Shown here: positions 31,666-32,975 of the stretch, piece by piece
How the letters are laid out: each line of letters begins with the position of its first letter
Numbering within the stretch: the first letter of the stretch is position 1
Assembly: GCF_031954525.1 (NCBI RefSeq)
Contig: NZ_CP134867.1
Location: 3,534,001-3,598,000 of the forward strand
From: Dyella sp. BiH032
Lineage (GTDB): Bacteria; Pseudomonadota; Gammaproteobacteria; Xanthomonadales; Rhodanobacteraceae
Length of the DNA: 64,000 nucleotides
Direction of reading: 5' to 3'
Program-made: the position numbers and the translations under genes
Notes under the pieces: generated by a model
What the model was told of the DNA's origin: nothing
What the model saw: the letters and a program-made list of their open reading frames with translations, nothing else
Database searches by the model: none

Positions 31666-32763
31666 TCAGCAACCCACCGCCTGGCGCCGCCGCGCCGCCG
31701 CGCCGGAGCCCGCGCGGCGCCGGCGTACGGCTTCGTCCAGCCGCTCCAGGACACTCACCGAGGCGTCCCAGTCGATGCAGCCGTCGGTGATGCTCTGGCC
31801 GTAGCGCAAGGGCTGGCCGGGGACCAGATCCTGGCGCCCACCCACCAGGTGGCTTTCCACCATGACGCCGATGATGCGGCGTTCGCCGTCCTCGATCTGG
31901 CCCGCGATATCGTCGATCACGCGCGGCTGGTTCTCCGGCTGCTTGGCGCTGTTGGCGTGACTGGCGTCCACCATCAGCCGCGGCGCGACGCCGGGCTTCG
32001 CGATCGCCTCGCAGGCCGCGTCGACGCTGCGCGCGTCGTAGTTCGGCTGGCGGCCGCCGCGCAGGATCACGTGGCAGTCTTCGTTGCCCAGGGTGCTGGC
32101 GATCGCCGTGCGGCCGTCCTTGGTCACGGCCATGAAATGATGCGGCTGCGATGCCGCCTGCACCGCGTCCACGGCGATCTTCACATTGCCGTCCGTGCCG
32201 TTCTTGAACCCCACCGGGCAGGACAGCCCCGAGGCGAGCTCGCGATGCACCTGGCTCTCCGTGGTGCGCGCGCCGATCGCGCCCCACGCCACTAGGTCGG
32301 CGATGTATTGCGGCGTGATCATGTCCAGGAATTCGCAACCGGCCGGCACGCCCAGCTCGTTGATGTCGCGCAGCAGGGTGCGCGCAAGGCGCAGGCCCTT
32401 GTCGATCCGGAAGCTGCCGTCCAGGTCGGGATCATTGATCAGCCCCTTCCAGCCCACCGTGGTGCGCGGCTTCTCGAAATATACCCGCATGACGATCTCC
32501 AGCGTGTCCGCGAAACGGCGCCGCTGTGCCACCAGCCGGCGCGCGTATTCCAACGCCGCGGTGGTGTCATGGATCGAACAAGGTCCGATCACCACCACCA
32601 GGCGGTCGTCCTGTCCGGCGAGGATGTCGTGCACGGCCGTGCGGGCATGCGCCACGGTGTCGAGAGCACGCTCGCCCGCGGCGCAGTCGTGCATGACCTC
32701 CGCGGGCGTGCTCAGCGGTGTGATGGCGCGGATGCGCAGGTCGTCGGTGTGGGGCACTGTCAT
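31666..32763 (-). CDS. 3-deoxy-7-phosphoheptulonate (DAHP) synthase, AroG-type
   Basis: A 365-residue class I-alpha DAHP synthase that condenses phosphoenolpyruvate and erythrose 4-phosphate, the first step of aromatic amino-acid synthesis. The family blocks VVIGPCSIHD, YFEKPRTTVGWKGLINDPDLDGSF and VDASHAN (metal and PEP binding) are present; GPCSIHD contains the metal-ligand Cys. It has an Arg-rich C-terminal tail (RRRRAGSGAAARRRQAVGC) not usual in AroF/G/H. Which aromatic acid inhibits the enzyme cannot be read here. A transcription attenuator lies directly upstream. Confidence 0.93.
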   Translation of the reverse strand: MTVPHTDDLRIRAITPLSTPAEVMHDCAAGERALDTVAHARTAVHDILAGQDDRLVVVIGPCSIHDTTAALEYARRLVAQRRRFADTLEIVMRVYFEKPRTTVGWKGLINDPDLDGSFRIDKGLRLARTLLRDINELGVPAGCEFLDMITPQYIADLVAWGAIGARTTESQVHRELASGLSCPVGFKNGTDGNVKIAVDAVQAASQPHHFMAVTKDGRTAIASTLGNEDCHVILRGGRQPNYDARSVDAACEAIAKPGVAPRLMVDASHANSAKQPENQPRVIDDIAGQIEDGERRIIGVMVESHLVGGRQDLVPGQPLRYGQSITDGCIDWDASVSVLERLDEAVRRRRAGSGAAARRRQAVGC

Positions 32764-32800: not shown

Positions 32801-32834
32801 GAAAAAAGCCGCCAGTGGAAGGCTGGCGGCTTTT
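32801..32834 (-). terminator. Attenuator terminator upstream of the DAHP synthase gene
   Basis: A perfect 12-base-pair stem AAAAGCCGCCAG/CTGGCGGCTTTT (32804-32815 with 32823-32834, seven-base loop) followed on the minus strand by TTTTTTC. It lies between the leader peptide and the DAHP synthase start, 38 nt upstream of the latter. Confidence 0.85.
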
Positions 32835-32858
32835 CGGGATGGTGATCGATGTTGCTGC

Positions 32859-32939
32859 TTACGATCGCGCCCCTTCCTCCGCCTGCGGCATCGGATAGCC
32901 GTAAAACCAAAAGTAATAGCGGGCGGAGGAAAGGTTCAT
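32859..32939 (-). CDS. Aromatic leader peptide of the DAHP synthase gene
   Basis: A 26-residue reading frame that starts MNLSSARYYFWFYGYPM and ends before the attenuator. Residues 8-15 are YYFWFYGY: seven aromatic residues of eight, covering all three aromatic amino acids. In attenuation, a ribosome that stalls at such codons when aromatic tRNAs are uncharged prevents the terminator from forming. No ribosome site is seen; the promoter's -10 box TATCCA lies eight bases before the ATG, so translation is probably leaderless. The codon run sits in the loop of a hairpin between the arms TTTCCTCCGCC (near 32925-32935) and GGCGGAGGAA (near 32873-32884). Confidence 0.8.
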   Translation of the reverse strand: MNLSSARYYFWFYGYPMPQAEEGARS

Positions 32940-32947
32940 GGGGCGTA

Positions 32948-32975
32948 TGGATAACACAGCGGCCGGCGGATGCAA
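32948..32975 (-). promoter_or_regulatory. Candidate promoter of the DAHP leader
   Basis: On the minus strand TTGCAT (32970-32975) and TATCCA (32948-32953) are 16 bp apart. Transcription would start at or within a base or two of the leader-peptide ATG. Confidence 0.45.

Follow-up and report, generated by a model that had tools for sequence, protein, structure and literature searches.

How can one gene for the first enzyme of the aromatic pathway answer to three end products? The question is raised by a locus in a 64,000-nt stretch of the Dyella sp. BiH032 genome (NZ_CP134867.1, positions 3,534,001 to 3,598,000 of the forward strand; hereinafter, the window), where the minus strand of a divergent intergenic region, between the gene of an MpaB-type oxygenase (33092 onward, plus strand) and that of a class I 3-deoxy-D-arabino-heptulosonate-7-phosphate (DAHP) synthase, carries a short leader open reading frame (ORF) with a run of aromatic codons, followed by an intrinsic terminator. 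In Escherichia coli, three isozymes, each with a regulator of its own, share the control of the DAHP synthase step. Here, a single RNA switch appears to combine all three end products where the pathway begins, in lineages that include the Xanthomonadales, Burkholderiales and Rhizobiales. Judging by its sequence, predicted folding and conservation, the element very probably attenuates transcription of the class I DAHP synthase gene by a ribosome-mediated mechanism, one leader covering phenylalanine (Phe), tyrosine (Tyr), and tryptophan (Trp).

Leader and terminator upstream of the synthase gene

A first-pass annotation of this DNA had proposed a 26-codon leader with the run YYFWFYGY and a terminator 38 nt before the synthase start codon. 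Both are present, the leader on the minus strand, which the annotation had not specified, and the terminator as a 13-bp stem with a U run. The parts of the element have the following window coordinates.

32859..32939, minus strand: leader ORF, 26 codons and TAA (32859–32861), ATG at 32939, MNLSSARYYFWFYGYPMPQAEEGARS
32895..32918, minus strand: aromatic run, codons 8–15 (Y Y F W F Y G Y), seven aromatic codons in eight
32922..32934, minus strand: arm 1, CCTTTCCTCCGCC, 13 bp with arm 2
32871..32883, minus strand: arm 2, GGCGGAGGAAGGG, within the 3′ part of the leader ORF, conserved core GGCGG
32879–32886, minus strand: antiterminator part of arm 2, GCAGGCGG, complementary to CCGCCAGC of arm 3 with one mismatch
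32823..32835, minus strand: arm 3, GAAAAGCCGCCAG, the 5′ half of the terminator stem, with a CCGCC core likewise complementary to arm 2
32803..32815, minus strand: arm 4, CTGGCGGCTTTTT, 3′ arm of the terminator, the U run continuing to 32802
32802–32835, minus strand: intrinsic terminator, 13-bp stem and 7-nt loop, 38 nt from the end of the U run to the synthase ATG
31666..32763, minus strand: class I DAHP synthase gene, the putative regulated gene, ATG at 32763 (TIGR00034, 533.8 bits; PF00793, 316 bits)

The leader is the sole site in the window, over all six frames, with at least six aromatic codons in eight, and the chance of at least seven in eight is about 2e-9 per position at the base composition of the window. 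The leader region folds with −74.1 kcal/mol, compared with −55.9 ± 4.2 kcal/mol for dinucleotide shuffles (z = −4.34, none of 200 shuffles as low). A simple terminator and promoter scan did not detect this hairpin, though the 13-bp stem is present in the fold, probably because part of the U run pairs inside the stem; nor did it detect a sigma-70 promoter before the leader. No Rfam family matched the window at the gathering score, and nothing real appeared at relaxed thresholds; Phe_leader (RF01859) reached 16.8 bits against a gathering score of 55 (E = 2), short of membership. Similarly, none of the Pfam and NCBIfam models was matched by the seven leader peptides tested. The element points to a widespread RNA that, as seen in the window, lies outside the Rfam thresholds, and to small ORFs for which, as seen in these seven peptides, Pfam and NCBIfam have no model.

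Conservation of the leader

The first-pass annotation had suggested that the leader, the aromatic run and the paired arms be looked for in relatives, and the comparison came out in its favor: leader, aromatic run, arm 2, and terminator all precede the DAHP synthase gene in relatives from three classes of proteobacteria. Among 80 synthase loci taken from named genomes, an aromatic leader followed by a terminator was found upstream of the synthase in 57, spanning gamma-, beta- and alphaproteobacteria. The run itself varies, from YYFWFYGY in Dyella and FYFWYYGF in Xanthomonas to FYFYFFWYL in Burkholderiaceae, YFYFS without Trp in Oxalobacteraceae, and YFWYFSY in Bradyrhizobium. Two more loci, L047 and L070, have an aromatic frame and no terminator detected by the script, and 19 out of 80 were counted as lacking the leader, five of them (L054, L060, L064, L074, and L081) with a weak aromatic frame (score 2.7–2.8), which we judged to be due to chance in each case. 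L041 and L071, one with a weak frame only and the other with 49 nt of upstream sequence, were left out of the maximum-likelihood tree. On this tree of 79 synthases the presence of the leader requires seven changes, compared with 18.7 for shuffled labels (none of 500 shuffles as low), which shows clustering only; in the leader-bearing part of the tree, proteins of gamma-, beta- and alphaproteobacteria are intermixed.

Three of these loci deserve separate mention. At L060 (Rhodocyclus tenuis), the short frame MPWGFYGPSPYWRYRR, 257–206 nt before the synthase match (score 2.8), might be a diverged leader. At L047, from the symbiont Candidatus Burkholderia humilis, the frame diverges from those of relatives after the first aromatic codons and extends into the stretch of the terminator; the attenuator looks to be in decay. 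L070, from a record titled uncultured Anaerolineae bacterium, is a contig of a metagenome-assembled genome labelled as Chloroflexota, whose synthase groups with proteobacterial ones; the aromatic frame MSRYFSFFSWYGYF... lies upstream, no U-run terminator was found there, and either transfer or mis-binning may be involved.

A covariance model trained on 45 leaders (that of the window and 44 from the loci) was then searched, together with the synthase protein, in 200 genomes of the order to which the host belongs and in 349 genomes of the phylum. Within the order, strong leader matches (E ≤ 2.8e-16) occur in 42 genomes, one per genome, and the synthase (E ≤ 1e-60) in exactly the same 42, whereas at these thresholds neither is found in the other 158; in all 42 the two lie on the same contig and strand, 35–130 nt apart. 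The leader matches are bimodal, with E either at most 2.8e-16 or at least 2.9e-6, and none of the 11 weak full-length matches that were fetched has a leader with an aromatic run. As the leaders trained the model, matches on their kin are expected; the coincidence of the matches with the synthase gene is not.

At the level of the phylum, a class I synthase (E ≤ 1e-60) is present in 199 genomes, and the leader was found in 32 out of the 33 genomes with the closest synthases (E ≤ 1.1e-159), as well as in G331 and G413 and in eight genomes that belong to a single further family within the same class. At the single exception among the 33, G508 (locus L140), upstream of the synthase there is only a 51-codon frame with scattered aromatic codons, which we judged to be a chance occurrence. 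All 40 matches with E ≤ 3.7e-9 precede a DAHP synthase gene, as compared by eye, and so do the weaker ones in G402 and G419. The second class I synthases of seven genomes have no such leader in the upstream stretches fetched (L189 left out); a Trp-rich frame before one of them, L184, was judged to be a chance one.

Apart from those at DAHP synthase genes, the two best phylum matches belong to leaders of phenylalanyl-tRNA synthetase genes (pheST) in enteric genomes, a third of this kind scoring lower, and two further matches, also in enteric genomes, are of the pheL type, one of them before a P-protein gene and with the peptide MKLFPFFFAFFFTFP. We take these to be pheM and pheL, leaders of proven role, on the strength of the peptide and of the downstream gene in the cases in which it was fetched. 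Altogether, the other weak full-length phylum matches that were fetched comprise three pheM, two pheL (one of which, L191, is assigned by the peptide only), and five without an aromatic leader; besides the pheM and pheL types, no other gene emerged among them as a target of leader copies. One of these five, an unrelated terminator in G308, scores between the pheM-type and pheL-type matches. The model built from the new leaders alone recognizes classical aromatic attenuators, though the weak matches are mixed.

Pairing of the arms and folding of the proposed switch

The 3:4 terminator stem is paired in 95.3% of the alignment cells, and the 2:3 antiterminator in 86.1% (45 sequences in both cases). 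In an alignment of 98 rows, one of which is a partial match on the opposite strand, the latter value is 84.7%, compared with 16–54% for slid arms. The same 98 rows contain four 2:3 pairs with changes on both sides, a number reached in three out of 500 shuffles, and 24 cells changed on both sides, compared with 9.2 ± 4.4 in shuffled alignments. For 2:3, the conserved complementarity is strong evidence from the alignments, and the covariation is modest.

In the untranslated leader RNA of the window, a 13-bp 1:2 stem forms, followed by the terminator. The 1:2 hairpin of the first-pass annotation is present in the predicted structures, both minimum-energy and centroid, but longer than had been described, at 13 bp. 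The 2:3 pairing with one mismatch, as it had been drawn, forms in the fold of the stalled nascent RNA with codons 8–13 masked, and the alignments and constrained folds together agree with the claim that the arms can switch partners.

With a ribosome at the leader stop codon, the terminator forms. For ribosomes stalled on the aromatic codons, we assumed a footprint reaching 12 nt upstream of the P codon and 13 nt counted from where the A codon begins. The more specific claim, that stalling on the aromatic codons frees the antiterminator, stands in these constrained folds for Y8, Y9, F10, and W11, where all five core bases of arm 3 are in the antiterminator, and fails for F12, Y13, and Y15, where arm 1 is out of the ribosome and 1:2 re-forms across it; when codon 15 is masked, the 2:3 pairing is limited to the GGCGG core. 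The same calculation for 58 leaders gives 2:3 from a footprint on at least one aromatic codon in all 58, and on at least one codon of each aromatic kind present in 54. By codon, 184 out of 197 Phe, 119 out of 139 Tyr, and 39 out of 46 Trp codons are effective stall positions. In the window leader, codons for several of the end products are computed to lie at effective stall positions, as would be looked for in a multivalent attenuator.

Aromatic class in the run, nucleotides in arm 2

The two parts of the leader ORF are conserved in different ways. For leaders of equal layout, 113 out of 163 amino acid differences in the inner aromatic run exchange one aromatic residue for another (155 leader pairs, which are not independent); from the genetic code, we estimate that roughly one in seven would be expected. 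As such exchanges prevail, it is the aromatic class that the run keeps. Arm 2 could be placed by a motif search in 129 out of 131 distinct leaders, in the usual frame in 116 and in the other two frames in six and seven, respectively; one of the off-frame cases, L138, is a wrong motif match, which leaves 12 real exceptions from several lineages (e.g., L022, L035, L036, L065, and L160). As arm 2 lies in other frames in these 12, nucleotides and not amino acids are selected there. The distance from the run to arm 2 has a median of 17 nt with the loose motif used, and differences by codon position over arm 2 were uninformative.

All three aromatic amino acids are encoded in 108 of the 131 leaders, which had been selected on general aromatic content and not on Trp; 22 encode Phe and Tyr, and one encodes Phe and Trp. 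Comparison by eye of the absence of Trp with the presence of more than one class I synthase per genome revealed no pattern in the handful of genomes concerned.

Codon usage in the leaders is peculiar as well: the 54 leaders of named loci have 143 TTT to 42 TTC codons for Phe, and their synthase genes 55 to 282, with no TTT at all in the synthase gene of the window. Slowing at a rare codon or an unstructured loop may possibly account for the preference.

Possible transcription start and leader translation

Two promoter-like elements precede the leader of the window.

32948..32953, minus strand: putative −10 element TATCCA, a weak match to the consensus, ending 8 nt upstream of the leader ATG, comparable elements lying about as far from the ATG in relatives
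near 32970–32975, minus strand: possible −35 element TTGCAT

Leaders of the Xanthomonadales type have an TGTGYTATCAAT-like element close before the ATG, and those of Rhizobiales a GCTATAT-like one; the −10-like hexamer would end about 6–10 nt before the ATG in many leaders, as it does at 8 nt in the window. In Burkholderiales, an TTATAAAG- or TTATAGT-like element lies farther upstream of the leader ATG. A sequence resembling the Shine–Dalgarno motif precedes two out of 131 leader starts, compared with 32 out of 50 synthase starts (seven loci with no synthase start found by the script left out), and the leader of the window starts without one. With no Shine–Dalgarno sequence and a −10-like element close upstream, the leader mRNA may be leaderless. 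A transcription start at or near the leader AUG is possible, and the leader ORF is presumably translated; the RNA of the trp attenuator of Sinorhizobium meliloti likewise begins at the leader AUG (PMC7298713).

Proposed mechanism and alternative explanations

The hallmarks of a Yanofsky-type attenuator are found together at this locus: a short leader with a run of end-product codons (seven aromatic ones in eight, the class being conserved in relatives), an intrinsic terminator between the leader and the gene, and, by computation, the mutually exclusive pairings 1:2, 2:3, and 3:4, with 1:2 the weakest. RNA polymerase would start near the leader AUG, and a ribosome would begin the 26-codon leader without a Shine–Dalgarno sequence. 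When Tyr, Phe, and Trp are all available on charged tRNA, it would reach the stop codon and cover arm 2, so that the 3:4 terminator forms; when one of the three is short, it would stall at Tyr8, Tyr9, Phe10, or Trp11 with arm 1 still covered, arm 2 would pair with arm 3, the terminator would be blocked, and the synthase would be transcribed. If the leader were left untranslated, 1:2 would form and transcription would terminate. That the attenuator responds to Tyr, Phe, and Trp individually is what we infer from the codons, and the presence of a codon is no proof of sensing.

A number of observations weigh against this reading. In the initial alignment of 45 sequences, covariation in 2:3 was unexceptional, 51 out of 500 shuffles scoring as high. 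The GGCGG/CCGCC core is almost invariant, and most of the two-sided changes fall in two pairs that flank it; of these two, one is formed in only 31 out of 97 rows. Any change in arm 3 is, in addition, constrained by the pairing of this arm with arm 4. The least conserved pairing is 1:2, with 70.8% of cells compared with 38–51% when slid. In 41 out of 58 leaders, when the nascent RNA is untranslated, arm 3 is engaged with some upstream sequence, not only with arm 2 (at least five pairs). The advantage of 2:3 over shuffled spacers is modest, as 53 out of 58 leaders pair all five core bases with a control mean of 3.1 of 5, and only 16 out of 58 reach a fraction of 0.1 in this comparison. Once the stalled RNA has reached full length, folding gives the terminator as the lowest-energy structure in 48 out of 58 leaders, and hence the switch must be kinetic, the antiterminator being made first; that an antiterminator wins by its earlier synthesis is generally accepted for attenuators. 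Moreover, the model finds the leader in only some 42 out of the 199 phylum genomes that encode a class I synthase; the enteric and many other class I synthases were without it in this search. Finally, Trp is absent from 22 of the 131 leaders and Tyr from one, and a Tyr codon in the DAHP synthase leader of Corynebacterium glutamicum is reported to give no Tyr response (PMC11802643).

The last two points also speak for an attenuator that in practice senses a single aromatic amino acid, likeliest Phe or Tyr, and tolerates the other aromatic codons: the Phe-Tyr-Phe leader of C. glutamicum answers to Phe and not to Tyr (PMC11802643), some leaders do without Trp, and F12, Y13, and Y15 of the window leader are predicted to be ineffective. 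We regard such a single sensor as unlikely, though it deserves serious attention, given that most leaders (108 out of 131) hold all three kinds of codons, that 54 out of 58 have an effective stall codon for every aromatic kind present, and that the four effective codons of the window leader include ones for Tyr, Phe, and Trp alike. An additional action in trans of the terminated leader RNA or of the peptide on other genes, similar to that of rnTrpL and peTrpL in S. meliloti, is rather improbable; it draws on the fact that the closest experimental parallel of an attenuator RNA starting with AUG does act in trans (PMC7298713), and it would add to attenuation, not replace it.

Selection on the peptide itself has still less to commend it. 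An arrest peptide of the TnaC or macrolide-leader type, stalling on a free aromatic ligand and not on uncharged tRNA, would fit the conserved frame of the run and an aromatic-rich nascent chain whose spacing from the RNA arms varies rather little. Arrest peptides, however, require specific residues, and no such conserved residues were found: which aromatic residues occur, and in what order, differs between leaders, as the exchanges above show (113 out of 163), and the peptide over arm 2 changes frame in 12 leaders, which makes this explanation highly improbable. The least probable explanation, close to negligible in our estimate, is a conserved gene of a small protein with its own terminator, not involved in regulation of the synthase. 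The start codon and the frame are indeed conserved through the aromatic run, and a terminator follows; but in the order of the host the leader is found only with the synthase (42 out of 42, and none out of 158 at the thresholds used), and arm 2 is kept as RNA in different frames and is complementary to arm 3.

Returning to the attenuator of the class I DAHP synthase, we consider the chances about even for a broader statement, in which it would be a pan-aromatic sensor with a positional code, only the codons near arm 1 counting, the leader and the synthase would be paired order-wide, with further units in alpha- and betaproteobacteria, and the mRNA would be leaderless in several lineages. If so, shortage of any of Phe, Tyr, and Trp would release the committing enzyme of the whole pathway, the order of codons would set how strongly each amino acid is heard, and it would be explained how one class I synthase gene answers to three products. 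The leaders would then be a natural test of how stall position relates to attenuator output, and a compact aromatic sensor.

Host genome

The closest relatives of the window synthase are Dyella and Rhodanobacter proteins, with identity up to 87%, which places the window in a genome of the Rhodanobacteraceae type. The host genome (5.25 Mb) has two PF00793 matches, the attenuated gene and L083, which we take to be kdsA from its neighbors and general knowledge. It also encodes one class II DAHP synthase (L084), located shortly behind another reading frame, and hence the attenuated gene is not the sole entry to the pathway; no aromatic leader with a terminator was found in the stretch upstream of this class II gene.

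Comparison with known systems

Attenuation by this mechanism is classical. What the literature searched does not describe is the joining of three end products in one leader, its broad occurrence and the possibly leaderless start. A proteobacterial leader of three aromatic amino acids found no description there; most subscription papers, older comparative surveys of attenuators among them, lay outside this literature, and an earlier mention is possible. The Xanthomonas oryzae small RNA paper (PMC3039613) concerns a different RNA, and aroA, aroF, aroG, aroH, and pheA were not found in the accessible text of PMC2965389.

Attenuation before DAHP synthase genes has been considered in other bacteria. 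In C. glutamicum, a leader peptide attenuator with Phe and Tyr codons, aroR, precedes aroF (PMC11802643, PMC4046766); this actinobacterial leader has Phe-Tyr-Phe and a reported response to Phe and not to Tyr, whereas the new one has a longer run, includes Trp and spans three proteobacterial classes. The Acholeplasma uORFC-13-1 motif before aroF is a predicted upstream ORF with a terminator before DAHP synthase, known from 24 sequences of bacteria other than those with the new leader, and it has a ribosome-binding site and one or more Phe codons; the available portion does not mention Tyr or Trp codons (PMC8632094). The same source notes that attenuation of E. coli aroF was once hypothesized (PMC8632094). 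Putative attenuators before DAHP synthase–tyrA operons are tabulated for two Vibrio species and a Thermus species; unlike the new element, these come from a prediction database, with no leader peptide described, the word leader being absent from the text, and with tyrA after the synthase (PMC1173090). The S. meliloti trpL leader, the RNA of which starts at the AUG, is a Trp leader of 14 codons and controls trpE(G) (PMC7298713).

The enteric leaders pheM (pheST) and pheL (pheA) resemble the new leader in having a short aromatic-rich frame followed by a terminator, with the same order of parts, but they have other target genes, are dominated by Phe (FFFYF, FFFAFFF) and lack Trp. Leaders of several amino acids are not new as such: in the multivalent attenuators thrL and ilvL, one leader holds codons for several end products of related pathways. 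There, the pathways are those of threonine and the branched-chain amino acids, and not the aromatic one.
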